From contig NZ_JAFEWE010000002.1 in NCBI RefSeq assembly GCF_017355785.1, positions 46,618-110,617 on the forward strand: 64,000 bases of DNA. The letters are read 5' to 3'. Below are positions 6,001-60,401 of the stretch, piece after piece. The translations under genes and the position numbers were made by a program. Each line of letters starts with the position of its first letter. Positions within the stretch are counted from its first letter, which is position 1. The stretch comes from Desertivirga arenae (lineage in GTDB: Bacteria > Bacteroidota > Bacteroidia > Sphingobacteriales > Sphingobacteriaceae). The notes under the pieces were generated by a model that saw nothing but the letters and a program-made list of their open reading frames with translations, had not been told where the DNA came from and did not search any database.

Positions 6001-9000
6001 ACTTCAGCTTTGGTAATGGGAGTAGCTACCATGGGTGTTAGTGGTAATTTCAAGATTGCCTCCACAGGTACAGGCTCAATGATGTTAAATAACACCACGG
6101 CAGCGTTAACAATTTCCGGAGATTATATTCACACTGCAGGGATTTTCAATGTGGTTTCAGCAGGCACCGGTACAGTTAATATTGGAGGGAACTTCTCTCA
6201 TACGGGCGGCACGCTCAGCGCTGCAACAGGTGGAACAGCAAAAATAATTTTCAACAAAGCGGGTAACCAGACTTTCACTGCTTCTAATAACACTATAGGC
6301 TCAGTTGTTGACTTCGCTGTAAACAGTGGCTCTACCCTTTCACTGGGAACAAGCGTTGTGACTGGCCGAAGTTTCACCCTTTCTTCAGGTGCTACTTTAG
6401 AGACCGCTCATCCTGCTGGAATTTCTTCCTCCGGAAATACGGGTGCAATTCAAACAAGTTCCCGCATTTTTAATACTGGTGCCGATTATATCTTCAATGG
6501 CACTGTTGCTCAGATCACCGGCAACGGGTTACCTGCAACCATCAGTGATTTAACCATAAATAATCCTGCAGGTGTTGTGCTCTCCTCTAATTGCACAGTT
6601 AGCGGAGCACTTAGTCTCAAAACAGGCTTGTTTAATGTTAACACCTCTACCCTGACCTTAAACTCTGATATAAACAAAACGGAGGGCAGTTTGGGTAGTG
6701 CATCCGCGGGAACTGTAATTTACAATAAGCAGAGCGATGGACAAACAGTAATTAGTGGCACTTATGGGAACCTTAGTTTCTCAAATTATAATAAAGTTTT
6801 TGAGAGTGCCCCATATAAAACTGACGGCACTCTTGATGTGGCAAATATTTTTATTGCAGGAGTACTAAGCCCTGGTACAGCTATTGGGCACAACACAGCT
6901 GAAAGTATTATTTCTTTCAATGGAAATAGCAATCAGGAAGTTCCGGCAAGTATGGAATATTTCAGTCTTTATCTGGCAGGAACAGGAACAAAAACTATAA
7001 AAGCAAGCAGTGAAGGACAGCTACGTATCAACTGGAACCTGGACGTAAACGCTGCTGTAGCTTTTACTAATATTTCTTCGATATACGTTGTAAAGAATGT
7101 CTGGGGTAGCCAGGCCCTCTTTACAGGCGCTATTCCTGTCACGATAGGCGGCGACTGGAAAAATTCAAGTACAGGAACTACCGTCACTGGTTTGTACACC
7201 TATAATGGGGAATCTTCAACAGTTCAGGAGGTGGGTGCTCTAAACTATAAAGATCTGACAATTACTGCCAGTAGAGGTGAATCTTTTCCTGTTACGGCCA
7301 ATCTCGCAAGAGGACCTGTTACCGTAGCCCGCACCCTTACCGTAGGTCCAGGTTGTGAACTAGCCTCGAATGGAAACCTTACGCTTCTTGCTGCAGAAAA
7401 CTCAAATGCAAATGTTGCACCGCTAATTGGCGACGCTACCATAACCGGCGATGTAAACGTTCAATCCTTTATAAAGGGTGGAGCATCTACTTTAAGAGGA
7501 ACCCGGGCCATGAGTGCACCAATCAGCAGTACTAATATTTATGAGCAGCTACAAGCATTTATGCTAGTAACGGGCCCCACAGGTGTAGCCGGAGGATTCG
7601 ATGCCGGTGGAAAAGGTCAGCCTTATGCTGTTACGATCACCAACTACAATGAAGCTGCCGGAGCTTCTCAATCAGCATTCATTCCAATTGAAACCCTTGA
7701 TGATGCAGCTAATCCTCCTGGAATGGGCTTCATGCTATTCTTTCGCGGAAATCGTACAAATCCATCTACGAAATTAAACTCTCCATTCGCTCTTCCTGAA
7801 AGTGTCACAGTGATATACAAAGGACCGTTGAACCAGGGAGATATTGAGATTCCGGTACCGAATAGCAGCAATCCGGGGGATCCGTATAACGGATATTTGT
7901 TAGCAGGGAATCCCTATGCATCAACGATAGACATTCAGGAAGTGAGAGATGCATCCACTGGGATAAATCCTGTTATCACCATTGTTAAAGCCGGCCAGGC
8001 AGCTGCAACTTACCATACAGTTCTTAATGTATCTGTTAATTCAGGATCAAGATATATTCAGCCTGGACAGGCATTTTACGTTAGCGCAATTGAAGGAGGT
8101 GGCATATTGCGATTTAATGAAAGTGTTAAGAAAAACGGTGACGACATTATTCCGGGTAGACTTTTAAACCGGCCTGAAGAAGCAATTTCAAATAAGTCAC
8201 TTAAGCTTAACTCTGCTTCTCTAACCACTTCAATCAATTCGAACGCCGCTAAGATCCTTAGGATGAGTTTGGCAGACGAGAAAAACACAGAAGAAGCTTT
8301 GATTGCATTCAGGGATGACTTCTCCAAAGCCGCAGACGAAAATGATGCAACTTATTTTTCAGGTACATCTGTGAACTTGTCATCGCTCTCCTCTGATAAT
8401 ATCTCTCTGGCCATAAACACGCTACCCTGGGAGGACCTGAAGGAGATCCCTCTTAACGTGAATGCTTCGTCCTCAGGTCAATTAACGTTGCACTTTACAG
8501 AAGTCCCTCAGAGCTCTCTTTACGAACTAGCTTTAAAAGACAAGCTTCTGGGTACAATAACACCAGTGGTTAGCAACAGTGATTATAATTTTCAAATTGA
8601 CGCAAGTAATTCGAGTACTTACGGTGCAGATCGACTTTCATTATTGATCAACCCGGCAAAAACTCTGGCGGTAAATTTTAAAGACTTTAGGGTATCAAGG
8701 ACCTCTACAGGGGCGGCTTTAAACTGGACTACCGCTCAGGAAATCAATAGCAAAAGTTTCGAAATAGAAAGATCAACAGATGGTAGAACGTTCAGTACCA
8801 TTGCCTCCATTACTGCAGCAGGTAATTCTTCAACAGCTCAAACATACTCCTTTGTCGACAACGATCCCGTGATTGGGATAAACTATTACAGAATAAGGGA
8901 GGTCAGCCTTAGTGATAATACCTACTCTGAAATTACGAGTATAACCTGGCAATTAAGTAAAGACTTAGAAGTTTCAGTTTACCCTAATCCTGTCGAAAAG

Positions 9001-49531: not shown

Positions 49532-51721
49532 TTAAAGATTCACCCTTAATTTATCAAAGAGCGAATCGGGAGTGAACGGTTTCGTCAGAAAATCTGTCAT
49601 TCCGGCCTCGAACACTTTTTCCTGCACTTCTGCCAAAGCAGATGCTGAAAGTGCAATGATTGGCAGTTCCCGGAATTTAACATCTGTTAAACGACGGATC
49701 TCTACAGTTGCGGTATAACCATCCATCACCGGCATCTGCAAATCCATTAATACGAGGTCATAATCTGTTGCCTGTACTTCATTTAAAGCCTCCAGACCAT
49801 TCTTTGCGACGCCGAAGCGTATGTTCCACTTCTTTAGAAACTGCTTGGCAAGCAACACGTTCATCGGATTATCGTCTACAATAAGGACGTTCTTACCAGC
49901 CAGGAGCTTTTCGTCGGGCTTTGCGGTGATGATTATTTGCCTTTGTTGATCAGCCGCGTTTTTCAATTCCAATTGAAAGGAAAATACGGAGCCTTCGCCC
50001 GGCGTACTGCTTACACTTACATCGCTTTTCATTAAACGCAGTAGCTGTTTGGTGATCGTTAGTCCCAGTCCCGAGCCACCGAATTTACGAGTGGTATCAG
50101 CGCTGGCCTGTGTGAAGCTTTCAAAGATCTGATCAATTTTATCTGGGGCGATGCCGATTCCTGTGTCGGATATCTGGAACAGGATCTTTGTATAGTCTTG
50201 TTCCCGAATCAACGTTTCTGCTATAATTTCAACCCGGCCTTTTTCTGTGAATTTAATAGCATTGCCTACGAGGTTTACAAAGATCTGGCTAAGACGCACC
50301 GGATCTGCAAGAACGGGTGGCAGACTTTCCTCTGGTAGGGTTAGCACCAGATCAATGCCCTTTTCTGTGGCCGCATTTTTAAGAGTAGCATAGATGTTCT
50401 GGAGAAGGTTGTTAAGATCTACTGGTGTTTCTTCAATCTGAAGCTTGCCTGATTGTATTTTGGAGAAATCAAGAATATCATTGATCAGTACCAGCAAGTT
50501 TTCAGCAGAAAAACGTTGTATTCCCAGGAATTCCTTCTGATCCTCCCGGGGGTTATTCTGAAGCAGAAGGTGGGTGAAGCCGAGGATGCTATTCATAGGT
50601 GTTCTGATCTCGTGACTCATTGTGGAGAGGAACTGATCTTTGGCAACTGTTGCCTGCTCCGCAGCTTCCTTAGCCTTCAGGAGGGCAATCTCCGTCTCCT
50701 TCCGTTCAGTAACGTCATTAAACAATAGAATCTTGCCTCTGATACGATCTTTCTTATCATACAAGTCACTGATGCTTAAAGCATAAGTTTTACTCGTGGC
50801 GCCTTTATCTATAGTAATCTCGGTTTCTTTAGAAATGCGATCGATGGATTCGAGATGGGGAAGCAATTGATGTACGTCACGACCAGACAACGTACTTGCA
50901 TCAAGAGCGAGGATACTCGACATCTTGGGATTAAAATCAATTACCCGTTCTTCCTGATCAATCACCAGCACACCTTGCTGAAGCGCTTCAACGATCTGTT
51001 CCCTGGCAATTGGCAGGATGTTAAACAGCTGGTACTTCAACAGTGCAAAGGTGAAACAAAAGGAACTGATCATAAAGGCAAAGGGAGTCAGGTCGATCCC
51101 ATTATCAGGTCGAACACCCAGTAAATACAGCATGTTAAAAAACCAGGGAACCAAGGCTCCTGCTACCAAAAACCGCTTTTGCTTTTTCAGTAAGATATCA
51201 TTCGTAACCTTACTTTTCAACAGCAGTACTATGCTAAGTAAGAGTACAAGGTAGTAATAGATAGTGAATACGATATACCAGGGACCTGTTTGGAATTTGA
51301 ACAAGTTGAAATGGTCTTGTTTCTCGAGGTATACCTTTGTGTAATGTAAATGGTGCCATTCGTTCGTCCATACCAGAATGACCGTAAGTAATGGTATCAG
51401 AAAAAGAAGCGAGATGTATGGGACTTTTAAGTAGTTTTCCTTACTCAGAAACTTTAACACGAAAAGCATCCAGAACGCCGGCAGGAAGGCGATGCCCAGG
51501 TATTCTATCTGAACAATCGTGGTCATGCGGGCGAGATCGGTCTGCAGTAATTCCAGGGCGTAAGCGAAAGCCCAAAGCGCTGCAGCAAGCATTAAATAGC
51601 CCAGATACTTCCCAAGCGACCTCACTTTTGCAAACAGGTAAACCGGTAACAAAGTAGTTAAAATACCGCAGAGAAAAAGGATTATGGAATAGCTGTTTGT
51701 TTCTACAGGTAGCATCATCAA
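49532..51721 (-). CDS. Hybrid sensor histidine kinase with 7-helix N-terminus
   Basis: A 729-residue membrane-bound hybrid kinase. Seven hydrophobic segments fill about residues 10-230 (7TM histidine kinase type). A PAS domain follows (about 250-350), then the phospho-acceptor domain with FLSTMSHEIRTPMNSILG, the ATPase domain (QIFVNLVGNAIKFTEKGRVE; FQISDTGIGIAPDKID; FGGSGLGLTITKQLL) and a C-terminal receiver domain (NVLIVDDNPMNVLLAKQFL; DLVLMDLQMPVMDGYTA, with the phospho-Asp in LMDLQMP). No output domain is present, so phosphate likely passes to another protein. No partner gene is adjacent. The N-terminal MMM leaves the exact start open. Confidence 0.93.
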   Translation of the reverse strand: MMMLPVETNSYSIILFLCGILTTLLPVYLFAKVRSLGKYLGYLMLAAALWAFAYALELLQTDLARMTTIVQIEYLGIAFLPAFWMLFVLKFLSKENYLKVPYISLLFLIPLLTVILVWTNEWHHLHYTKVYLEKQDHFNLFKFQTGPWYIVFTIYYYLVLLLSIVLLLKSKVTNDILLKKQKRFLVAGALVPWFFNMLYLLGVRPDNGIDLTPFAFMISSFCFTFALLKYQLFNILPIAREQIVEALQQGVLVIDQEERVIDFNPKMSSILALDASTLSGRDVHQLLPHLESIDRISKETEITIDKGATSKTYALSISDLYDKKDRIRGKILLFNDVTERKETEIALLKAKEAAEQATVAKDQFLSTMSHEIRTPMNSILGFTHLLLQNNPREDQKEFLGIQRFSAENLLVLINDILDFSKIQSGKLQIEETPVDLNNLLQNIYATLKNAATEKGIDLVLTLPEESLPPVLADPVRLSQIFVNLVGNAIKFTEKGRVEIIAETLIREQDYTKILFQISDTGIGIAPDKIDQIFESFTQASADTTRKFGGSGLGLTITKQLLRLMKSDVSVSSTPGEGSVFSFQLELKNAADQQRQIIITAKPDEKLLAGKNVLIVDDNPMNVLLAKQFLKKWNIRFGVAKNGLEALNEVQATDYDLVLMDLQMPVMDGYTATVEIRRLTDVKFRELPIIALSASALAEVQEKVFEAGMTDFLTKPFTPDSLFDKLRVNL

Positions 51722-52087
51722 AGTTTACGAAAAACTTTTGTTTATGTTTTATTTGCCGGAAATTTCGACGTTCTTATGATTTGCCGGCAAGGGCTCGCAG
51801 TGAATTTCCTTCAGAGTTGATCTAGGCTACATTTTGTACCTCAGATCCATTATCAAGCAACGCAGGAATACTCCATCAGGACGACCTAAAGGACGGACTC
51901 ACCTTTGTACAATCTCAATAACCTTTCAAGGATTGCCCTTTCTGCCGGAAAATTAGTTTTGCTAGCTAGTACATGAACCCTATTCGCTAGCTTTTCCTCG
52001 GTTTGGCTACGTAATGCCCCGATTTCACTAAACCGGGGGGACGATGGTTGATGACCTTTGCCTATATCAAAATTTAATCTATAACAA
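51722..52087. other. Intergenic region, no firm gene
   Basis: About 366 bases between the divergent hybrid kinase and hydrolase genes. On the minus strand a frame ends at 51886 with a helical-looking tail (LRSQTEEKLANRVHVLASKT, then ERLLRLYKGESVL), but it has no credible start outside the hydrolase gene. It could be a gene remnant. Nothing else was recognised. Confidence 0.4.
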
Positions 52088-53011
52088 ATGAAAACGCAAA
52101 CACCCATCATCAGCTTCAGTCCGGTTGTATTACCTGTACAAGGACGCCACGTAGACCTTGAAATGAAAGTTTCTGCTCCTGCAAGCGGTAATAATCTGCC
52201 AATCATCCTTCTTTCGCATGGCCATGGCCCCTCTAACTTTCTTTCTTCATATAAAGGATACGCTCCCATGGTAGATTTTTTTGCGAAAGAAGGCTTTGTT
52301 GTAATTCAACCTACTCATCAAAATTCCAGGGCGCTTGCGCTTTCCTCAGACCTTCCTGAAGCACCTTTGTTCTGGAGTTCACGAGCAACGGACATGAAAT
52401 TTATCCTTGATCATTTAGACGAAATTATCTCCACCGTACCTGGTCTGGCCGAAAGGGTCGATAAAGCAAAAGTTGCTGCCGTGGGCCATTCTATGGGCGG
52501 TCAGACAGTCGCCATGCTTGCCGGCATGGAGGTAAGCGATCCGGCAACAGGTAAAATAGTGAATGCCGCCGAACCAAGATTAAAGGCATTGGTGCTTATT
52601 GGCGCCTCTGGTGGACCTGAAGGATTTAACGGAGTCAATAGACAGCACTATCCTGTGTTGGCAGCTGGCGATTTTAGCACCATGACTCTGCCCGCACTTA
52701 TTGTAAACGGGGATAAGGACATCAACCTCATGTTCTCGGATGTAGACAACTGGAGAGCAGACGCTTACTATCATAGTCCGGGCCCGAAAGACCTGCTGAC
52801 CGTATTTGGAGCAGAACATATTTTCGGTGGCATATCCGGGTATGATGCCCGCGAGACAAGTGATGAAGATCCGGAACGTGTTGCCTTTGTATGTAAAAGC
52901 ATTCTTGCGTATATTCGGAGTACATTCGATCCAAATGATCAAAGCTGGGAAGAAGCCAGGAAAACCCTTAACGGTGTAGAGGGTGCATTAGGCAGCATTG
53001 AAAGTAAATGA
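52088..53011 (+). CDS. Alpha/beta hydrolase (chlorophyllase-like)
   Basis: A 307-residue cytosolic serine hydrolase. The nucleophile elbow is AAVGHSMGGQTVAML, the oxyanion region is IILLSHGHGPSNFLSSY, and the catalytic Asp and His probably lie in LIVNGDKDINLMFSD and FGAEHIFGGIS. Fold and length are those of dienelactone hydrolase/chlorophyllase-like esterases; the substrate is unknown. There is no signal peptide. An AraC regulator gene follows 12 bp downstream and is likely co-transcribed. Confidence 0.88.
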   Translation: MKTQTPIISFSPVVLPVQGRHVDLEMKVSAPASGNNLPIILLSHGHGPSNFLSSYKGYAPMVDFFAKEGFVVIQPTHQNSRALALSSDLPEAPLFWSSRATDMKFILDHLDEIISTVPGLAERVDKAKVAAVGHSMGGQTVAMLAGMEVSDPATGKIVNAAEPRLKALVLIGASGGPEGFNGVNRQHYPVLAAGDFSTMTLPALIVNGDKDINLMFSDVDNWRADAYYHSPGPKDLLTVFGAEHIFGGISGYDARETSDEDPERVAFVCKSILAYIRSTFDPNDQSWEEARKTLNGVEGALGSIESK

Positions 53012-53023
53012 AAAACAGGCAAT

Positions 53024-53938
53024 ATGAAGAATGAAATGTCTAACCATAGATTCAGTTCTTTATCAAGGTTGCATAAGGCGCTGGACATCCCGGCACCTAT
53101 GCACCCATTGGTAAGTTTGATAAATAATGCTGCAGGAAATATTCCGCTGGCAAAACTTCCAAGTCCCCATATTTTAAATTTTTACAAGATCTCGTACAAG
53201 ATGAACTTTCAGGGAAAGTTCAAATACGGGCAACATTACTACGATTTCGAAGAGGGGGGAATGTTTTTTGTTTCGCCTAATCAGATCACAGGGGGGCACG
53301 CACCACTTAGTGATCAATCTGGTTATACTTTGCTTTTCCACCCAGATTTTTTACTGGGTCACGAACTCAGCAGAAAGATCAAAGAGTATGGATTTTTCTC
53401 CTATTCTATTAACGAAGCGCTGCACTTATCAGAAAAAGAAAAAACCACCATTATTTCTGTTTTTGAAAATATCGAAGAAGAATTAAAAGGCAGAATTGAT
53501 AATTTCAGCCAGGATGTTGTGATTTCTCAGATCGAATTGCTGCTGAACTATTCCAATCGATTCTATAACCGGCAATTCCTTACACGAAAGGCAGTAAGCA
53601 GCGATCTCCTTCAAAAAGTAGAAGAGATTTTACACGATTACTTTCAATCATCACCCAACAAAAACCAGGGGCTCCCAACTGTTCAATTTCTTTCAGAGCA
53701 GTTACATGTTAGTGCTAGTTATTTAAGCGATATGCTACGATCACTAACGGGGCAAAATACTCAGCAGCACATTCATAACCACCTGATTGAAAAGGCAAAG
53801 GAACAGTTATCGACGAGCGATGCTTCGATAAGTGAAATAGCGTATGAACTAGGTTTTGAACATCCACAGTCCTTTAGTAAACTTTTCAAGCTCAAAACCA
53901 ATGTGTCGCCTTTGGATTTCAGACGGTCTTTTAATTAA
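53024..53938 (+). CDS. AraC family transcriptional regulator
   Basis: A 304-residue AraC/XylS-type regulator. The N-terminal half is a cupin-like sensor domain (GGMFFVSPNQITGGHAPLSD). The C-terminal domain shows the two helix-turn-helix units (VQFLSEQLHVSASYLSDMLR and SEIAYELGFEHPQSFSKLF). It follows the alpha/beta hydrolase gene closely and may control that pair. Its stop codon lies 18 bp before the distal end of the Y-RNA-like array, which is read from the other strand, so transcription of the two converges. Confidence 0.9.
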   Translation: MKNEMSNHRFSSLSRLHKALDIPAPMHPLVSLINNAAGNIPLAKLPSPHILNFYKISYKMNFQGKFKYGQHYYDFEEGGMFFVSPNQITGGHAPLSDQSGYTLLFHPDFLLGHELSRKIKEYGFFSYSINEALHLSEKEKTTIISVFENIEEELKGRIDNFSQDVVISQIELLLNYSNRFYNRQFLTRKAVSSDLLQKVEEILHDYFQSSPNKNQGLPTVQFLSEQLHVSASYLSDMLRSLTGQNTQQHIHNHLIEKAKEQLSTSDASISEIAYELGFEHPQSFSKLFKLKTNVSPLDFRRSFN

Positions 53939-53956
53939 AGTATATTGGGATAATAA

Positions 53957-54087
53957 TAAAGGGTAACAGGTAGTAAATGTCTGTTTCTCCATGTTTTACC
54001 ATTAAATTATTCCCCTTAAAGGGAAGCCGGAATCGAACCGGCATCCTGGTCGTGGAATCGAAGTAACATTTATTGACGACACCTTTA
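53957..54087 (-). ncRNA. Y-RNA-like unit 5 (long, permuted tRNA mimic)
   Basis: The fifth and last unit of the array downstream of the Ro60 gene, 131 nt. Terminal stem UAAAGG/CCUUUA; internal loop with UGUCGU on the 5' side and ACCUGUUAC on the 3' side; upper stem AAAUGU/ACAUUU; then the shared UUACUUCG motif. Inside is a permuted tRNA: T-arm GCCGG-UUCGAUU-CCGGC at 54026-54042, an acceptor-like stem UUCCC/GGGAA closed by a six-base loop, then a D-arm-like UUUA-AUGG-UAAA at 53995-54006. It lacks a normal tRNA 5' and 3' end. In bacterial YrlA RNAs the tRNA-like module is built the same way. Function as a Ro60-bound Y RNA is inferred from structure and position. Confidence 0.78.
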
Positions 54088-54089
54088 GT

Positions 54090-54167
54090 TTAAAAGGCTA
54101 CAGCTAATAACAGACTGGGTTACACCCTCGTGGACAGCGAAGTATCTGTTAATCACGGCACTTTTAA
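54090..54167 (-). ncRNA. Y-RNA-like unit 4 (short)
   Basis: A short unit of 78 nt. Terminal stem UUAAAAG/CUUUUAA is perfect. The internal loop has UGCCGUG on the 5' side and AGCUGUAGC on the 3' side. The upper stem is UAACAGA/UCUGUUA (54145-54151 with 54108-54114), followed by the shared UACUUCGCU motif and a small hairpin GGGU-GUA-ACCC (54117-54127). No T-arm or D-arm is present, so it keeps only the presumed Ro60-binding stem. It is separated from unit 5 by two bases. Confidence 0.72.
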
Positions 54168-54181
54168 TTTTAAATTTCTTA

Positions 54182-54312
54182 AAAAAGAAGGGCAACAGTT
54201 TATTAGTGACATTACATGCTCTACCAACTGAGCTACCCTTTCGGGGCCGGACTCGAACCGGCGACCTTGTCGTCCCAAGCGAAGTAACACTAATATACGG
54301 CACCTTCTTTTT
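54182..54312 (-). ncRNA. Y-RNA-like unit 3 (long, best permuted tRNA mimic)
   Basis: The clearest member, about 131 nt. Terminal stem AAAAAGAAGG/CCUUCUUUUU; internal loop UGCCGUA opposite AACUGUUGC; upper stem UAUUAGUG/CACUAAUA (54288-54295 with 54201-54208); shared UUACUUCGCU motif. The enclosed module is a circularly permuted tRNA: T-arm GCCGG-UUCGAGU-CCGGC (54246-54262), then CCC-GAAA-GGG (54236-54245), an acceptor-like stem closed by a GNRA tetraloop, then a canonical D-arm GCUC-AGUUGGUA-GAGC (54218-54233). The anticodon end is opened into the upper stem. This matches the design of YrlA-type bacterial Y RNAs. tRNA search tools may miscall its halves. Confidence 0.85.
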
Positions 54313-54381
54313 AAGGAGCAATAACTGAACGGGATGGTGTTTCATTTTGAGCGAAGTATCCCAATTCCACGGCATCCTTAA
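54311..54381 (-). ncRNA. Y-RNA-like unit 2 (short)
   Basis: A short unit of 71 nt. Terminal stem UUAAGGA/UCCUUAA is perfect; the internal loop has UGCCGU on the 5' side and GUUAUUGC on the 3' side; the upper stem is GGGAU/AUCCC (54358-54362 with 54331-54335), which holds a 22-base loop opening with the shared ACUUCGCU. It contains no tRNA-like part. It directly abuts unit 3, so units may be cut from one precursor. Confidence 0.72.
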
Positions 54382-54395
54382 TCTTTAATTCCGAT

Positions 54396-54517
54396 TCAAA
54401 AAGCTACAGGTGAGCCGGGCCGGGGACCGCAAAGAGGACTCGAACCTCCATCATGATGATCCATCACAATGCCCACCCCTATTGGAGCGAAGTAACCCGG
54501 CTCTACGGCATTTTTGA
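54396..54517 (-). ncRNA. Y-RNA-like unit 1 (long, T-arm bearing)
   Basis: The first unit, 122 nt, starts 4 bases after the Ro60 stop codon. Terminal stem UCAAAAA/UUUUUGA; internal loop UGCCGUA opposite ACCUGUAGC; upper stem GAGCCGGG/CCCGGCUC (54496-54503 with 54412-54419); shared UUACUUCGCU motif. It contains a T-arm GGAGG-UUCGAGU-CCUCU (54433-54449) followed by an acceptor-like 3' strand GCGGUCCCC, and a hairpin UGAUG-GAU-CAUCA before the T-arm. No D-arm follows the T-arm, so this member differs from units 3 and 5 and may be degenerate or fold otherwise. Confidence 0.75.
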
Positions 54518-54521
54518 TTTC

Positions 54522-56045
54522 CTAGATTTCCATTTTTTCAATTTCATGCACCGCAGAATCTCCCTTTTCGAGAGCTGCAAGCACCTCGAACACCTTATCA
54601 CTCCAACCCGCAATCATAAAGACAGAGTCTTTCTCTAGCCTTACGGGTGTATTACCATAGCCCTTGAGATCGAACAGGTACAGCTTTGCTTCAGGAGCAA
54701 CTTCACTTTTATATCGCTTCCATAAAGATTCGATGTGAGTATTACCATAGCTATTCCATAGTTGACAGTCGGTAAAAAGCATTACTTTATCCATTTTCAC
54801 TCTCCTGTTTAAGATGTCTTGTACGACCAGATAACCATTGGTGGAATAGCCCACTTCACCTTCTCTTCTATAGAATTCCTGAACGCTACCAAGTATGTTG
54901 CTCTTTGAAACCGCAATTGTCTTCCAGGTATCACCGAACATACCGGTTACTACATTCTTACAGCGATTTTGCAAAAGCATAGCCAGCATCAGGCCTACGT
55001 CATACAGCAGAACCTTCGACTTAGCCGAAACAGGCATTTGCATCGAACCGGAAACATCACAGGCTAGCAGCACCTTCGTTTCGGGATCAAAGCCCTTAAT
55101 GTTGATAGCACTTGCCTGTACTGCTTTTTCCAGCGCTTCCAAAACTTCTCCCCCAAAGCCGTTACTAACGGTTAATAGCTCCCGATAGGCAGATAAATAC
55201 CTGAACGGAAATTGTTTGGCATTAGCAACCTGCTTTTCGGAGGAAAGCACCTCGCATGCTTTTCTAATGCTTTCGTAGGAGACACCTGCTTCCAGGATAT
55301 TTCTCAAATTTCGCAGCAGTGCCATATAGCCAAGTTTACCGCTGTTGATAAGCTCTTCCCACTTTGCTTTAAAAGCCTTCAACTTCACCTTATCGTTTGC
55401 GAATTGCTGCTGACCAAGAGAAGAAAATTCAGTTTCCCATGTATATGGAGTTTCTAAGTCATCCTTTACGATCTTATCGAATATCAATTGCTGCGCCTCA
55501 TCCTTAGCTTTAGGATGAACAAGAAACAGGGCATCCCGAAGTTTAATCGCAGTATTCCGGTTATATTTCGCAAACTGGTATTCGTCAAAATTGTTGAACG
55601 CCACTGATAAACCTTTCTGTAACTGTTTCGATAACCGATTCAATTTCTTTACTCCGGTCCGGTCATTCATCATCTGATAGCATGCCAGAAGTTCTGTTAT
55701 TTCATCGGCCCTGGAAACTACCTTTGGGACTACTTGTGAAATTAGATTGTCTCCCGAATGAATCTTTGCTAACTCAGTTATTAAAAGTAGTGGTACAGAG
55801 CGCATGTACATTTTATGCCTTGCATATAACGCTAACTTTGCAACAAAAAGGGGATTGTTCTTTGCAATAAGATCTCTCAGACGCAACAATCTTTCCTCAT
55901 TCTTTTCGTAAAAAGAATCGTTTAAAGACCATGTTACAACCAGCGAATACAATTCCATCCGGGCATTGACAGCGAAAGCTTTTTCACCTTCATGGTTTTT
56001 CACAATTACCGGCTTCTTTTTTCTGTTGAGTATATTAAAGATCAT
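54522..56045 (-). CDS. rsr: Ro60-like TROVE domain protein (Rsr)
   Basis: A 507-residue ring-shaped RNA-binding protein, the bacterial orthologue of the Ro 60-kDa autoantigen. It binds Y RNAs and defective structured RNAs. Residues about 25-310 are the HEAT-like TROVE repeats (ELYSLVVTWSLNDSFYEKNE; LYARHKMYMRSVPLLLITEL). Residues about 320-507 are a von Willebrand A domain with an intact metal site: DVSGSM at 330-335 and VMLFTDCQLWNS. The ATG at 56045 lies 40 bp from an operator-like palindrome. It is the gene directly upstream of the Y-RNA-like array and downstream of rtcB on the same strand (158 bp, with its own promoter region). Confidence 0.93.
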   Translation of the reverse strand: MIFNILNRKKKPVIVKNHEGEKAFAVNARMELYSLVVTWSLNDSFYEKNEERLLRLRDLIAKNNPLFVAKLALYARHKMYMRSVPLLLITELAKIHSGDNLISQVVPKVVSRADEITELLACYQMMNDRTGVKKLNRLSKQLQKGLSVAFNNFDEYQFAKYNRNTAIKLRDALFLVHPKAKDEAQQLIFDKIVKDDLETPYTWETEFSSLGQQQFANDKVKLKAFKAKWEELINSGKLGYMALLRNLRNILEAGVSYESIRKACEVLSSEKQVANAKQFPFRYLSAYRELLTVSNGFGGEVLEALEKAVQASAINIKGFDPETKVLLACDVSGSMQMPVSAKSKVLLYDVGLMLAMLLQNRCKNVVTGMFGDTWKTIAVSKSNILGSVQEFYRREGEVGYSTNGYLVVQDILNRRVKMDKVMLFTDCQLWNSYGNTHIESLWKRYKSEVAPEAKLYLFDLKGYGNTPVRLEKDSVFMIAGWSDKVFEVLAALEKGDSAVHEIEKMEI

Positions 56046-56067
56046 AAATCCTCCTTTTTATTATGCA

Positions 56068-56111
56068 TCAAAGTTGAATGCTTGCTGCGCAGTGTTTTTG
56101 CGCAGTAAAAT
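56068..56111 (-). promoter_or_regulatory. Operator/promoter of the Ro60 gene (regulon copy 1)
   Basis: CTGCGCA-N7-TGCGCAG (56085-56105) sits 40 bp upstream of the Ro60 ATG within a 28-bp stretch (56084-56111) that is identical to the one before rtcB. On the minus strand an ACTTTGA (56068-56074) lies nine bases downstream of that stretch, and is also conserved at rtcB; it fits the TTTG of the Bacteroidota -7 element. The WYL protein is the likely ligand. Confidence 0.75.
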
Positions 56112-56203
56112 TTATTTTATTTTTTTATTAATTGTGCAGATACGTGTGAGAATCAAAGCGAGAGCTGGCAATTTCAGTATCTTGAAGAACTATGTGGAAT
56201 GTG

Positions 56204-57658
56204 TCAGTCCTCAGGTCTTTCCTTAGGGTCGGCCATTTTAACTATTCTTGGTTGAAATGATGCCAATACTTCTACGAGATCTGTTTGAGCTGCCATTACG
56301 GTATGAATATCTTTATACACCATTGGCGCTTCATCCAGATCCGAACCTAAAAGAGTAATTTTCTTACTTTCAAGTTCCGCTTCCACAACTTCTTTTCGGA
56401 TCGTTTTAAAAGCTGCGCTTCGGCTCATTAATCGTCCAGCCCCATGTGACGCAGAATTTATGGACATGTCATTCCCTTTTCCACGAACCACAAAGCCGGG
56501 TGTACTCATTGACCCAGGGATGATACCCAACACTCCTTCACCTGCTGGAGTAGCTCCCTTACGATGTACCATCACTTCCGTACCATTAGCCAGCTTTTCT
56601 TTCCACGCAAAGTTGTGGTGGTTTTCAATCCGAATTACTGGTGAAACTTTCAAAGACTTTGCTATTTTATCATGGATTTCGTGATGATTTGCCGACGCAT
56701 ATTCGCCCGCGAGATTCATAGCAATCCAATATTCTTGTCCTTCTTCTGAGTTCATATCCAACCATGCCAAATGCTTTGCTTCGTGGGGCAGCTTCGTCTT
56801 CTTCATTGCTATTTCTGAATAGTAATTTGCAATACTTCCTCCAAAGCCCCGTGATCCTGAATGCGATAATAAAGCAAGGTATTTGCCTGCAGGAATTCCT
56901 TCCAGGGCTCCCTCTGTCAAAGTTAATTCACCCCATTCCACAAAATGATTTCCTGTTCCGGAAGTCCCTAATTGAGTATATGCCTTGTTCTTTAGAGACC
57001 TGATAACTTTTGTCGCATTCCACTCCGGCTTGTCGAATAAAGAAGCATCATGGTAATGACTAACTACTCCCCCCATTCCAAATACCGTATGGTTTTCCAA
57101 AAGCTTTTTCAAGTTATCCTTTTCGCTATCCACCAGCTCTGATGGAAGATCAAAAATGCTCAGGCACATTCTGCAGGCAATGTCTACCCCTACAGCAAAG
57201 GGTATAATAGTGTCAATTGAGGTGGCTAGAACTCCGCCTATAGGCAAACCATAACCATGATGAGCATCAGGCATTAAAGCCCCTGCTACTGCAATTGGCA
57301 ATTTCATTGCCGTGTTCATCTGTGCCAGGGCTCCGGCTTCTATATGTTCTTTTCCAAAAACCCGAAAATCTAGTAAGCTTTCTCTTAATGCATGGTTACT
57401 TCGTTGCTGTTTTACAAACATTCCTTCTTTACGAAGGTCCATTACCTTTTCAGCCAGGTTTTTAAACTTGCCTCCCTTTTGCATAGCATAAGGCATCGGA
57501 TCTTCAATTAGAGATTCCATGTTCGACAAGATTATTTCCTTAGTCATTACATTGTTTTTTAGCAAACCATTTGCAACGCGACTAAAGCTTACCAGTAACT
57601 CTAATTCTGTTACACCTAAAGCGCTGATTTCGCCGTTGCTGATTTTTTCTTTTTCCAT
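56204..57658 (-). CDS. rtcB: RtcB family RNA ligase
   Basis: A 484-residue GTP- and Mn-dependent ligase that joins RNA ends bearing 2',3'-cyclic phosphate or 3'-phosphate to 5'-OH, as made by tRNA-cutting toxins and stress. Metal and guanylylation residues are visible: MPDAHHGYGLPIGGV, GVDIACRM (the Asp-x-x-Cys pair), SGTGNHFVEWG, LLSHSGSRGFGG, and the His nucleophile in ASHGAGRLMSRS at about residue 405. The ATG at 57658 is preferred over a TTG 24 bp earlier; it lies 38 bp from the operator. No archease or RtcA gene is adjacent. It is divergent from the WYL regulator and upstream of the Ro60 gene. Confidence 0.94.
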   Translation of the reverse strand: MEKEKISNGEISALGVTELELLVSFSRVANGLLKNNVMTKEIILSNMESLIEDPMPYAMQKGGKFKNLAEKVMDLRKEGMFVKQQRSNHALRESLLDFRVFGKEHIEAGALAQMNTAMKLPIAVAGALMPDAHHGYGLPIGGVLATSIDTIIPFAVGVDIACRMCLSIFDLPSELVDSEKDNLKKLLENHTVFGMGGVVSHYHDASLFDKPEWNATKVIRSLKNKAYTQLGTSGTGNHFVEWGELTLTEGALEGIPAGKYLALLSHSGSRGFGGSIANYYSEIAMKKTKLPHEAKHLAWLDMNSEEGQEYWIAMNLAGEYASANHHEIHDKIAKSLKVSPVIRIENHHNFAWKEKLANGTEVMVHRKGATPAGEGVLGIIPGSMSTPGFVVRGKGNDMSINSASHGAGRLMSRSAAFKTIRKEVVEAELESKKITLLGSDLDEAPMVYKDIHTVMAAQTDLVEVLASFQPRIVKMADPKERPED

Positions 57659-57678
57659 GACTTTTTTTGTTTGACGAT

Positions 57679-57722
57679 TCAAAGTAAGACCGCCGCTGCG
57701 CAGTGTTTTTGCGCAGTAAAAT
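57679..57722. promoter_or_regulatory. Shared rtcB/WYL operator (regulon copy 2)
   Basis: The second copy of CTGCGCA-N7-TGCGCAG (57696-57716) lies midway between the divergent rtcB ATG (57658) and WYL ATG (57754), 38 bp from each. It is embedded in the same 28-bp stretch (57695-57722) as the copy before the Ro60 gene, and the downstream ACTTTGA (57679-57685, minus strand) is also shared at the same nine-base spacing. Confidence 0.8.
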
Positions 57723-57753
57723 ATTTTTTGATAATTTTCAGAAAATTTCTCCG

Positions 57754-58785
57754 ATGCCTGTTAATCGCAATGCCCTTATCCGTTACCGAACTATAGATAA
57801 CTGCCTCCGCCACAAATACAAAAAATGGACTTTAGAGGATCTTATAGAAGCTTGTTCTGATGCTCTTTATGAATTTCAGGGAATTGATAAGGGGGTAAGT
57901 CGTCGAACAGTTCAGGCAGATATTGAGATGATGCGTAGTAATAAATTAGGCTACGAAGCACCAATAATTGTTATTGACAAGAAGTTCTATACCTATTCGG
58001 ACAAGAATTACAGCATTACCAATATCCCTCTTACCAATCAGGATATGCAGGTACTTACCGAGGTGGCAGACTTGCTTAAGCAATTTAAAGGTTTCAGTCA
58101 CTTTGCTGAAGTGAACGAAATGGTAAGTAAGCTAGAAGATAAGATTTACGTACAGAAAACATCAGCAACTTCAGTAATTGACTTTGAGAAAAACGATCAT
58201 TTGAAAGGATTGGAATTTTTGGAGATGATTAGGAAAGCGATCATTTCGAAGACCGCACTCTGTTTCACCTATCGTTCTTTCCGTGCAAGGGATGAAAGTA
58301 CCTTTTGCATTAGTCCTTACTTATTGAAAGAATACCGCAATCGCTGGTTTGTGCTGTGCCTTGCACACAAAAAAAGCTCTCCTATTCTAACTCTCGCCCT
58401 TGACAGAATTGTGAGTGTAGAGAAAGCAGAAACGGAACCTTTCCGCGAAAATATTAGCCTTGATTTAGGCACTTATTATTCGGATGTTATTGGAGTAACA
58501 AAGCATCCGGGTCAAAAAGACTGTGAGGTGGTGTTTAGAATAGATCATGAAAATGCACCTTATATTATCACTAAACCACTGCATCCAACGCAGAAGCTAT
58601 TGACAGAAACCGCTGAGGGTAAGATTTTCAGCATCCGCGTTATTCTTAATTATGAGCTTGAACGGGAATTGTTGGGTTTCGGATGTAAGTTGCGGGTTTT
58701 AGGACCACGAACTTTGGTGAACCGTATCAAAGAGAATCTTGCCAAAGCGCTGGAGTGCTACGAGAAGGCTGAAGAAGACATATAG
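57754..58785 (+). CDS. WYL domain transcriptional regulator of the RNA repair island
   Basis: A 343-residue regulator with an N-terminal helix-turn-helix (NALIRYRTIDNCLRHKYKKW; GVSRRTVQADIEMMRS) and a central to C-terminal WYL domain (CFTYRSFRARDESTFCISPY; LLKEYRNRWFVLCLAHKK). WYL domains bind nucleic acid or nucleotide-like ligands and control many defence and repair operons. Here it replaces the sigma-54-dependent RtcR activator of Proteobacteria. The frame opens at 57703 inside the operator, so the ATG at 57754 is the better start. It probably controls itself, rtcB and the Ro60/Y-RNA unit through the paired palindromes; whether it activates or represses is not shown. Confidence 0.9.
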   Translation: MPVNRNALIRYRTIDNCLRHKYKKWTLEDLIEACSDALYEFQGIDKGVSRRTVQADIEMMRSNKLGYEAPIIVIDKKFYTYSDKNYSITNIPLTNQDMQVLTEVADLLKQFKGFSHFAEVNEMVSKLEDKIYVQKTSATSVIDFEKNDHLKGLEFLEMIRKAIISKTALCFTYRSFRARDESTFCISPYLLKEYRNRWFVLCLAHKKSSPILTLALDRIVSVEKAETEPFRENISLDLGTYYSDVIGVTKHPGQKDCEVVFRIDHENAPYIITKPLHPTQKLLTETAEGKIFSIRVILNYELERELLGFGCKLRVLGPRTLVNRIKENLAKALECYEKAEEDI

Positions 58786-58862
58786 AAGAGCTCCACCTAA
58801 ATTCTTCAGGACTTCTAACATTGAGAATAATGAAGGAATCCAGGTAGAGCCAAGGTACACGA

Positions 58863-59150
58863 TCAATCGCAAACTGAGATACATTGCACCTTCATACCAA
58901 ACACCTTTCGATACCTTTGATACCATTCGATCGCATAAGCAAAATCAGTCCAACTTTTAAATACAGAACCGATATTTTCAAAAAAGTAAGTACCATTATT
59001 TGCAATAACATAAAGACCTGATGCAGGCAGCTGTGTATTCACCTTATCCTGCATTTTAGAAATCCTAAGTCTTACCTCACCCTCAAAATCACATAGGAAT
59101 TCGGTGTTAGGCAGATGTTTATAGGTTAGCACCAGAAATTTGTTTTCCAT
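58863..59150 (-). CDS. Hypothetical small protein downstream of a response regulator
   Basis: A 95-residue protein (MENKFLVLTYKHLPNTEFLC ... WYQRYRKVFGMKVQCISVCD) with no signal peptide or recognised domain. It starts 16 bp after the stop of the single-domain response regulator on the same strand, which supports a real gene. Balanced composition and a clean ATG add weak support. No function is proposed. Confidence 0.5.
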   Translation of the reverse strand: MENKFLVLTYKHLPNTEFLCDFEGEVRLRISKMQDKVNTQLPASGLYVIANNGTYFFENIGSVFKSWTDFAYAIEWYQRYRKVFGMKVQCISVCD

Positions 59151-59166
59151 AGGGATAAATTATTAT

Positions 59167-59586
59167 TTACGATTCCGGCCTGTATGCCGTTCTTATAATG
59201 GTTTCCTTTTCACAGGAACCTGTCTTACAATAGCCTTTTATCAAATCCAGCAGACACCAAAGGTCAAAAGGCTTCTCCACAAAACTATCGGCGCCGTAAT
59301 TACCAAGAGATTTCAGGACTTTGGGGTAAGCAGAAAGCATAATTACCGGAATTTCACTTGTCGAAGTATTAGCTTTTACTTCATGACAAAGTTCCCCCCC
59401 GTTTCTTCTGGGTAAGATATAATCCAACAGTATAATATCAGGATTGAAATCTTTCACATCTGCAACGATATTGTCCGAGTCAGAAAGGATCTTTACTTCA
59501 AACTTCTCATCGCTGAGCATCTCGGATAGCATGTCGGAGATAAACCGATCGTCATCTATAATAAGTACTCTTTTCATATCTTTCAT
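59167..59586 (-). CDS. Single-domain response regulator
   Basis: A 139-residue CheY-like receiver domain without an output domain. The acidic pocket is VLIIDDDRF, the phospho-Asp is in DIILLDYILPRRNGG, the Thr/Ser position in IPVIMLSAYPK, and the Lys in SFVEKPFDL. A start three codons later (ATG at 59577) is equally possible. It is divergent from the NarL-type regulator gene by 164 bp and may take phosphate from the hybrid or multi-sensor kinases, though pairing is not shown. Confidence 0.9.
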   Translation of the reverse strand: MKDMKRVLIIDDDRFISDMLSEMLSDEKFEVKILSDSDNIVADVKDFNPDIILLDYILPRRNGGELCHEVKANTSTSEIPVIMLSAYPKVLKSLGNYGADSFVEKPFDLWCLLDLIKGYCKTGSCEKETIIRTAYRPES

Positions 59587-59750
59587 GGGTAGACCAAAGT
59601 TCGGGTGTGTGACGTCATCATCCGATAGGAAAAAAACGGAGTTTTATTTCGGAAAATACTCGATTTTACATTCGATGTTCCTTTTACTCCTGAAAAGGGT
59701 TTATACTAAACCTAATTAACCCATAAGGTTTAAAAATAAATTACCCGATT

Positions 59751-60401
59751 ATGGATGCTATAAAAGTTCTCTTGGCCGAAGATCACACTATCGTTCGAAA
59801 TGGAATTAGAGCCATGCTTGAGTCAGACGAGGGCTTTCAAGTTGTGGGAGAGGCTACAGACGGATTGGAAACCTTAACATTAATAGAAAAGGGACTATAT
59901 GCCGATGTGGTTTTAACGGATATTAGTATGCCTGAAATGGACGGATTAGAACTATCAAGGGAGCTCCAAAAGAACTATCCGGAGTTAAAAGTTGTAATCT
60001 TGTCTATGTTGAACACAGATCAATATATCTTTGAAGCGTTTGATGCTGGGGTTAGGGGATACGTACTTAAGAATGCCGGTCCGGTGGAGATGAAGCTGGC
60101 TATCAGCGAAGTGGCAAAAGGTAAGGAATTCGTTTGCAGCGAGATCGGCATGGACCAGATTCGCAGAGCCAGGAGGGCATTTGCGGGTAACACCTGTGTA
60201 AATGACAACCTGCTACTTACCAATCGCGATAAGGAAATTTTAGCATTAGTTGCAGAAGGTCTCACCAACAATGAAATTGCCGACAAAATCTTTACAAGCC
60301 GGAGAACGGTTGAAGGACATAGGCAAAGTTTAAAAGAAAAGGCCGGAGCAAAAAACACAGCTCAGCTGATTGCTTTTGCTATCCGGCAAGGCATTATCTG
60401 A
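59751..60401 (+). CDS. NarL/FixJ family response regulator
   Basis: A 216-residue DNA-binding response regulator. Receiver domain: VLLAEDHTIVRNGIRAML with the Asp pair position, phospho-Asp in VVLTDISMPEMDGLEL, Lys in GYVLKNAGPVEM. C-terminal LuxR-type helix-turn-helix: TNRDKEILALVAEGLTNNEI and TSRRTVEGHRQSLKEKAG. It is convergent with the multi-sensor HisKA_3 kinase gene, with only 4 bp between the stops, and the kinase type (NarX/DegS-like) normally pairs with NarL-type regulators, so they are a probable two-component pair. Confidence 0.94.
   Translation: MDAIKVLLAEDHTIVRNGIRAMLESDEGFQVVGEATDGLETLTLIEKGLYADVVLTDISMPEMDGLELSRELQKNYPELKVVILSMLNTDQYIFEAFDAGVRGYVLKNAGPVEMKLAISEVAKGKEFVCSEIGMDQIRRARRAFAGNTCVNDNLLLTNRDKEILALVAEGLTNNEIADKIFTSRRTVEGHRQSLKEKAGAKNTAQLIAFAIRQGII

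Follow-up and report, generated by a model that had tools for sequence, protein, structure and literature searches.

Predicted Y-RNA-like RNAs with tRNA-like inserts in an array downstream of the Ro60 gene of Desertivirga arenae and other Bacteroidota

Introduction

Y RNAs, their association with rsr and rtcB, and the tRNA-like domain of YrlA are already known. Known Y RNAs of bacteria attach to Rsr, which they gate or tether, and the Deinococcus Y RNA tethers Rsr to PNPase in RYPER (PMC7790460, PMC4726728, PMC8394870). YrlA is encoded beside rsr, in some bacteria within an rsr-rtcB operon (PMC7790460). The Salmonella operon answers cut tRNAs, and the tRNA-like domain of YrlA has been suggested to act as a competitive inhibitor of an anticodon nuclease, although in that work the nuclease under study left Salmonella YrlA uncut (Hughes et al. 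2020, PMC7790460). Y RNAs of Bacteroides thetaiotaomicron, which belongs to the same phylum as the genome described here, were found in Ro60 ribonucleoproteins by immunoprecipitation (Greiling et al. 2018, cited in PMC11277228). Our searches of open-licence PMC papers turned up neither anticodon-arm-like Y RNAs nor mixed arrays of this kind, and the primary Y RNA papers may describe them.

Array layout and comparison with described Y RNAs

The window analyzed here is a 64-kb stretch of Desertivirga arenae DNA in which rsr, encoding a Ro60 ortholog, is preceded by an RtcB ligase gene and followed by the array (Table 1). The initial annotation placed five Y-RNA-like units on the rsr strand from 4 bases past the rsr stop codon, and we found them there, at positions 53956-54517 of the minus strand, with the outer stems that it had listed present in the sequence. 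Unit 1 begins 4 bases from the rsr stop, the adjacency to the Ro60 gene that marks bacterial Y RNAs, and successive units are separated by 14, 1, 17, and 1 bases. No tRNA gene was called by ARAGORN in the 64-kb stretch. Counted from rsr, the array consists of a class A unit, a short unit, a unit of YrlA order, a second short unit, and a decayed unit of YrlA order, units 4 and 5 both having a decayed look. Two other loci, L146 from a genome of the same genus and L019 from Desertivirga xinjiangensis, share one array sequence with each other; here the class A unit and a short unit are accompanied by one unit of YrlA order and one that combines a hairpin with a T arm.

The closest described RNA is YrlA (Rfam RF02553), found in Salmonella and others, which likewise lies beside rsr and combines a stem with a tRNA-like domain. 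Its arm order is that of unit 3 and partly of unit 5, but not that of units 1, 2, and 4. When positions 50000-60000 were searched with the Rfam YrlA model, neither unit 3 nor unit 5 reached the gathering threshold of 69 bits (Table 1), and units 1, 2, and 4 gave no match up to an E value of 5; there was also no match at the cut-off in the 15 of 81 rsr loci that were searched. The array differs from YrlA in its frame, which has a UGCCGUA/CUGUUGC loop and the sequence UACUUCG, and in setting unlike inserts side by side, including ones with normal tRNA order and ones resembling anticodon arms. The Deinococcus radiodurans Y RNA is likewise an Rsr-adjacent RNA with a stem held by Rsr, and the present units might share its tether or gate function; we know of no array of unlike tRNA mimics in that species.

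Table 1. Features of the rsr locus and its downstream array, in window positions
Feature	Position	Strand	Basis
Y unit 5 (YrlA order, D arm decayed)	53956..54088	-	Rfam YrlA 27.9 bits, E 0.012
T arm of unit 5 (GCCGG UUCGAUU CCGGC)	54026..54042	-	predicted fold
Y unit 4 (short insert)	54090..54167	-	sequence
Possible anticodon-arm-like hairpin of unit 4, UUCG[CUGUCCA]CGAG, uncertain	54127..54141	-	sequence, imposed fold
Y unit 3 (YrlA order: T arm, acceptor-like hairpin, D arm)	54185..54309	-	Rfam YrlA 44.4 bits; fold z -2.47
D arm of unit 3 (GCUC AGUUGGUA GAGC)	54218..54233	-	predicted fold; D-loop GG/T-loop UC coupling over 195 units
T arm of unit 3 (GCCGG UUCGAGU CCGGC)	54246..54262	-	predicted fold
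Y unit 2 (short insert)	54311..54381	-	sequence
Anticodon-arm-like hairpin of unit 2, UUCG[CUCAAAA]UGAA	54341..54355	-	sequence, imposed fold
Y unit 1 (class A)	54396..54517	-	sequence; class A alignment and pair counts
T arm of unit 1 (GAGG UUCGAGU CCUC)	54434..54448	-	sequence
rsr, Ro60 ortholog, 507 aa	54522..56045	-	ORF; Pfam TROVE 93.2 and vWA_Ro60 40.9 bits, both above cut-off
rtcB RNA ligase, upstream of rsr, same strand	56204..57682	-	Pfam RtcB 284 bits
WYL/WCX regulator, divergent from rtcB-rsr	57703..58785	+	Pfam WYL 47.6 and WCX 41.6 bits

Two sets of related loci were assembled. The first comprises 81 loci, the present one and 80 from species genomes (the best 80 of 229 confirmed, from 261 matched stretches). 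The second was drawn from 30 stretches and from 61 locus records of genome searches, in a few of which a single gene appears as two pieces; its 355 raw units in 85 loci were reduced to 240 in 63 loci when units identical to the first set were dropped, and it comes mostly from the family of Desertivirga arenae itself. Homologous arrays next to rsr, which had been proposed as a search target in Sphingobacteriaceae, exist in that family and beyond it. The reading of the initial annotation, a Y-RNA-like array after Ro60, is supported. Such arrays are not confined to one genome, the first-set loci holding 1 to 10 units each. The tRNA-like inserts and the anticodon-arm look of the short units of relatives did not figure in it.

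The two-stem frame

Each unit is predicted to close on a frame, the outer part of which is a stem of about 7 pairs, a bulged U, and a GC (or GU) step closing on GC (or AC). The inner part is an internal loop, CGUA / xCUGUU, followed by an inner stem of 8 pairs and then by UACUUCG and the insert. On its 5′ side the core reads UGCCGU(A/G) in units 1 to 4 and UGUCGUC in unit 5, with UACUUCG preceding the insert, and on its 3′ side it reads AxCUGU(U/A)(G/A)C, from which unit 2 deviates (AGUUAUUGC). Single-sequence folding is weak (z of -2.7, -1.4, -2.5, -1.7, and -1.5 for units 1 to 5), and the minimum-energy fold of unit 5 lacks the frame, so comparative evidence was used.

The 5′ motif occurs on the rsr strand in 80 of the 81 first-set loci, L058 alone being without it. 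A finder requiring both stems recovered 376 units on the rsr strand of the 81 loci, a count that retains false units such as L012:4431, which lies inside rsr, and L004:6146, with an insert of 224 bases; on the opposite strand it recovered 7 (80 loci, L002-L081; 734,414 bases). Because this finder relies on pairing, the 3′ end was also located by sequence motif alone, and 128 of 266 units then paired on both helices, compared with a mean of 19 and a maximum of 30 in 500 shuffles, and a mean of 62 and a maximum of 79 when 3′ sides were swapped within an array. The related loci are not independent, many being from Mucilaginibacter and its kin, and the shuffles leave kinship uncorrected. One pair is not side-matched by the finder, which favors GC or AC on the 3′ side regardless of the 5′ side, and in the 616 units of both sets (376 and 240) it is C-G in 400, U-A in 176, U-G in 33, C-A in 1, and something else in 6.

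From the first set, 35 of the 40 class A units and 39 of the 62 short units were aligned. The 39 had been picked by eye for anticodon-like tips, and the rows of the Desertivirga arenae units have ends off by one or two bases. Pair counts in these alignments lay above all or nearly all shuffles and above all slid versions, and the percentages paired in the outer and inner stems are partly built in, since units were accepted only if both stems paired. When stems were tested against the 3′ stretch of another locus, 138 of 404 paired; the similar composition of the stems and the free search inflate this control, and the fixed-position test is the fair one. On the motif-only pairing test, the covarying pair, and the alignment pair counts, and despite the weak single folds, the predicted frame structure is under selection. 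The earlier proposal that the stems covary around a fixed loop is therefore borne out in units beside rsr of other Bacteroidota (376 in 81 loci, and 240 more, distinct from these, in 63 other loci); the five Desertivirga arenae units by themselves would not have proved structure. The ends of the units pair in a conserved two-part stem with a fixed internal loop, as expected of Y RNAs, and that loop is a candidate Ro60-binding site.

tRNA-like inserts

By their sequences, the predicted tips of the frame are different pieces of tRNA. A T arm, with loop UUC(G/A)ANY and at least 4 of 5 stem pairs, is present in 259 of the 376 first-set units, a figure that we prefer to the 464 of 616 units with a T-loop-like 7-mer because the latter asks for no stem and would often arise by chance. 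Class A, the type of unit 1, accounts for 82 of the 616 units and has the order acceptor-like 5′ strand, long hairpin, T arm, linker, and acceptor-like 3′ strand, without a D arm. With its acceptor-like helix, T arm, long hairpin, and pseudoknot, and its missing D arm, it recalls the tRNA-like domain of tmRNA and the tRNA-like structures of plant viruses, but it sits on an Rsr-type frame ending in the outer stem rather than in a 3′ CCA. Each of the four T-stem pairs that were counted is formed in all 35 rows (100%), and three of these pairs show double changes. In the predicted pseudoknot, the 3′ linker pairs with three bases, namely the G of UACUUCG and the two that follow it; pairs two and three form in 139 of 164 cases (mean 104 and maximum 121 in 2000 shuffles), and on another alignment only 70% of cells pair. 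Of the 40 first-set loci with a class A unit, 33 have it at the head of their Y units, and in unit pairs of classes A and B the class A member comes earlier in 46 and later in 4. These counts use automatic classes that are rough, leave 128 of 616 units unclassed, and differ from the earlier classes. In the class A units of L026, L045, L047, L048, L063, L065, and L078 the T loop is UGCAAAU, with G at position 55.

Class B, to which units 3 and 5 belong, has the YrlA order of T arm, acceptor-like hairpin, and D arm, and the predicted fold of unit 3 displays both the frame and the arms. Across 195 units from 121 loci, the T-loop U55C56 and the D-loop GG are both present in 173, both absent in 14, and mixed in 8 (Fisher 2e-15, uncorrected for kinship, with the D arm of L016:5987 probably read at the wrong place). 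These two elements meet only in the folded elbow of tRNA, and their coupling therefore indicates that units of YrlA order keep a tRNA-like tertiary fold or lose it as a whole.

Some units have departed from these patterns. The T loop is UAAAAAU in the YrlA-order units L010:6048, L013:5988, L015:5985, L016:5987, L137:3800, L140:3544, and L145:3544, and the D loop of the same unit is without GG in all of these except L140, the one mixed case among them; L020:6050, which lies outside the T/D-loop scoring, has the same T loop. By eye, L002:6546, L003:6283, L005:6357, L006:6253, L024:6047, L049:6159, and L067:5978 resemble a tRNA whose D loop has been opened, in the order D 3′ strand, anticodon stem with shortened loop, T arm, acceptor-like hairpin, and D 5′ strand.

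Anticodon-arm-like tips of short units

Units with short inserts carry a hairpin after UACUUCG, and among the 99 whose hairpin has at least 3 pairs the commonest loop length is 7 (38 units), with U at the second place in 29 and a purine at the sixth in 30 of these 38. Reference loops were taken from own-genome tRNAs (40 distinct, giving 31 loops; Ala-GGC, Val-GAC, and Pro-GGG yielded none under the rule). Exactly such a loop, closed by at least 2 pairs, is held by 24 of the 62 short units of the first set, compared with a mean of 0.22 and a maximum of 4 in 500 insert shuffles, and none was found when the first-set inserts were reversed, complemented, or reverse-complemented. The second set, searched under the same rules after every unit identical to one of the first set had been taken out, gave 11 exact loops in 41 units (mean 0.15 and maximum 2 in 1000 shuffles).

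For the pooled sets, the reference was 74 loops from tRNAs that overlap no Y unit. Exact matches were found in 40 of 103 short units from 39 loci, covering ten anticodons in 26 distinct contexts: Asp 17, Phe 7, Tyr 4, Lys 4, Asn 2, Gly 2, and Ser, Arg, Glu, and Leu 1 each. At least 11 of the 17 Asp matches fall within one genus, being from four first-set Mucilaginibacter loci and seven second-set loci of genus g14. Insert shuffles gave a mean of 0.7 and a maximum of 4, permuted loop letters a mean of 1.7 and a maximum of 19, and permuted anticodon letters with the other loop positions kept a mean of 12.3 and a maximum of 38. When whole anticodons were swapped between loops the mean rose to 22.4 and the maximum to 43, with 40 or more in 11 of 1000 runs, and so the form of the loop gives much of the signal, to which the exact anticodons add. 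Requiring stems of at least 3 pairs leaves exact loops in 19 of 103 short units as against 4 of 513 long-insert units. Three of the four long-insert loops were rejected as mimics: that of L036 belongs to a tRNA also called by ARAGORN, and those of L148 and L211 are loops of acceptor-like hairpins. The fourth is in L077.

These counts bear on whether the units are ordinary paralogous YrlA RNAs whose anticodon-like tips are stable hairpins arising by chance. Units 3 and 5 are YrlA-like, and 63 of the 103 short units, including a group with TCCAAA... inserts, have no exact tRNA loop; the 40 matches nevertheless stand far above the first three null means, and the excess of loops was seen again in the second set, which makes this explanation highly improbable.

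Four genomes of the family have a slot in common whose units are alike except in the loop, which is CUGUCAC (Asp) in L178, CUGUAAA (Tyr) in L194, CUUUUAC (Lys) in L201, and CGGUCAC in L191. A37 is kept in all four units and U33 in three (L191 lacks it), so that in these predicted arms the form of the loop is largely kept while the identity of the anticodon is exchanged between species. Loops with U33-G34-U35, namely those of Asp, Asn, and Tyr, make up 23 of the 40 matches and 12 of the 74 reference loops.

The inserts might instead form a sponge or adaptor for enzymes that modify or mature tRNA, the modules being modified with pseudouridine, dihydrouridine, or queuosine and regulating those enzymes, or else depending on the modification for their own folding. 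U33-G34-U35, present in 23 of the 40 exact loops, is what we take to be the recognition core of Tgt. The Lys, Phe, Gly, Ser, and Leu loops are without UGU, and U55C56 is lost from some T loops, which would presumably cost them the TruB and TrmA sites. YrlA itself is reportedly modified by TruB and DusA (PMC8394870), and on this balance we consider a sponge or adaptor improbable.

In Desertivirga arenae itself, neither short unit holds an exact tRNA anticodon loop, and units 2 and 4 are near-matches only. The loop of unit 2 has 7 nucleotides with U33 and A37 and resembles that of Leu(CAA), differing from the Leu(CAA) loop of the same genome, CUCAAAC, only at position 38; with the hairpin imposed, the fold has -15.6 kcal/mol against a minimum of -15.9, or 0.3 above it. 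Unit 4 has U33 and GUC but C where tRNAs carry a purine at 37, and its imposed hairpin, at -15.7 against -18.6 kcal/mol (2.9 worse), is disfavored on its own.

A proposed role as tRNA-part mimics

Our preferred reading, to which we assign a probability of roughly 0.4, is that the five predicted Y-RNA-like RNAs are Rsr-bound mimics of tRNA parts that, beside RtcB, serve as decoys or sensors for proteins that cut tRNA or otherwise bind it. Transcription of the array would accompany or follow that of rsr, as the few bases between its parts suggest, and processing would then release the individual units. In each RNA, the part held by Rsr would be the frame, made up of the outer stem with its bulged U, the GCCGUA/CUGUUGC loop, and the inner stem; covariation shows the predicted structure of this frame, and its binding by Rsr is suggested by analogy with known Y RNAs. 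The insert would point away from Rsr and imitate a part of tRNA, an imitation that sequence, covariation, and the exact anticodon loops of relatives show for the predicted arms, with the short tips of Desertivirga arenae as near-matches only. Nucleases that target tRNA, or other tRNA-binding proteins, might bind the mimic instead of tRNA or cut it, in which case the cut would serve as a damage signal, and RtcB may reseal the cut RNA. U33-G34-U35 is, we assume, the target group of colicin E5-type nucleases as well as of queuosine insertion.

Alternatively, the units could be a set of tethers or gates, each insert docking Rsr to a different ribonuclease or RNA substrate, with tRNA-likeness serving docking rather than decoying. 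Class A, as the first unit in most first-set loci that have it under the rough classes, could then be the main tether, and tethering and gating are the functions of bacterial Y RNAs described as tested in the papers cited (PMC7790460, PMC4726728, PMC8394870). Such docking leaves unexplained why anticodon loops are exact, why there are several anticodons, and why anticodons switch in one slot, and we regard it as unlikely. A set of dissimilar tRNA parts, exchangeable anticodons, and a ligase proposed for tRNA repair are better fitted by decoys or sensors than by one tether.

On a wider scale, and more tentatively than for the single array, mimics acting as decoys might amount to a kit of Y RNAs in Bacteroidota that copies every part of tRNA, with anticodons exchanged among species, as a decoy library against anticodon nucleases kept beside Ro60 and the ligase. 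Many tRNA pieces on one frame permit a direct test of which tRNA-binding protein meets which unit, and, if the reading is true, mimicry of the anticodon arm joins the known mimicry of acceptor, T, and D arms by Y RNAs.

Genomic surroundings and distribution

RtcB was found within the fetched stretch of 37 of 80 related loci and not in the other 43, the flanks being mostly no longer than 4 kb, and it lies upstream of rsr on the same strand in only 9 of the 37. A WYL regulator is present in 27 of the 80 (flanks up to 4 kb). ARAGORN called at least one tRNA gene in 37 and at least three in 24 of the 81 first-set loci; the whole Desertivirga arenae genome has 50 tRNA matches in 6.19 Mb. Between 7 and 17 tRNA genes were called in L026, L028, L036, L040, L045, L048, L049, L057, L062, L068, L072, L075, and L079, beside or between the Y units and rsr, with Ile(UAU) recurring. 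A backup set of tRNAs in such loci would fit a response to tRNA damage.

In several loci tRNA genes alternate with Y units, and the inserts could accordingly be by-products, recombination having carried neighboring tRNA genes into Y RNA frames, where what is left of them decays without a role of its own, as the decayed look of units 4 and 5 might suggest. Against such decay stand the coupled states of T and D loops, the covariation of T stems and pseudoknot, the kept order of class A before class B, and the conservation of A37 and, in three of four units, U33 in the slot that changes its anticodon; we judge by-products to be quite improbable.

The distribution of rsr is patchy: the family has matches in 74 of 399 genomes, the order in 50 of 300 (1e-100), and the phylum in 23 of 395 (1e-60). 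The 5′ motif occurs somewhere in 340 of the 399 family genomes as against the 74 with an rsr match, and its presence in a genome is therefore uninformative; in the Desertivirga arenae genome it has 7 matches (5 in the array and 2 on contig C39) against 11 for the pattern read backwards. One genome without a listed rsr match, G061, has 12 matches on one strand and was considered as a Y RNA array, but we judged it, from the listing alone, to be a tandem repeat: in G061:C22:35028-35604, nine of the twelve are an identical 22-base match within 600 bases, mostly 68 apart. Among IMG/VR contigs with an Rsr relative, five have no Y unit above the score limit, and one (L224) has two, at 6411 and 6553, one of them of YrlA order. 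The Rsr match of many relatives falls into two pieces around residues 290-294, pointing to a variable insertion that separates the TROVE part from the vWA part. On the Tannerellaceae contig of L058, an Rfam BTncRNA_FopS match lies close to rsr (L058:5875-5946, minus strand).
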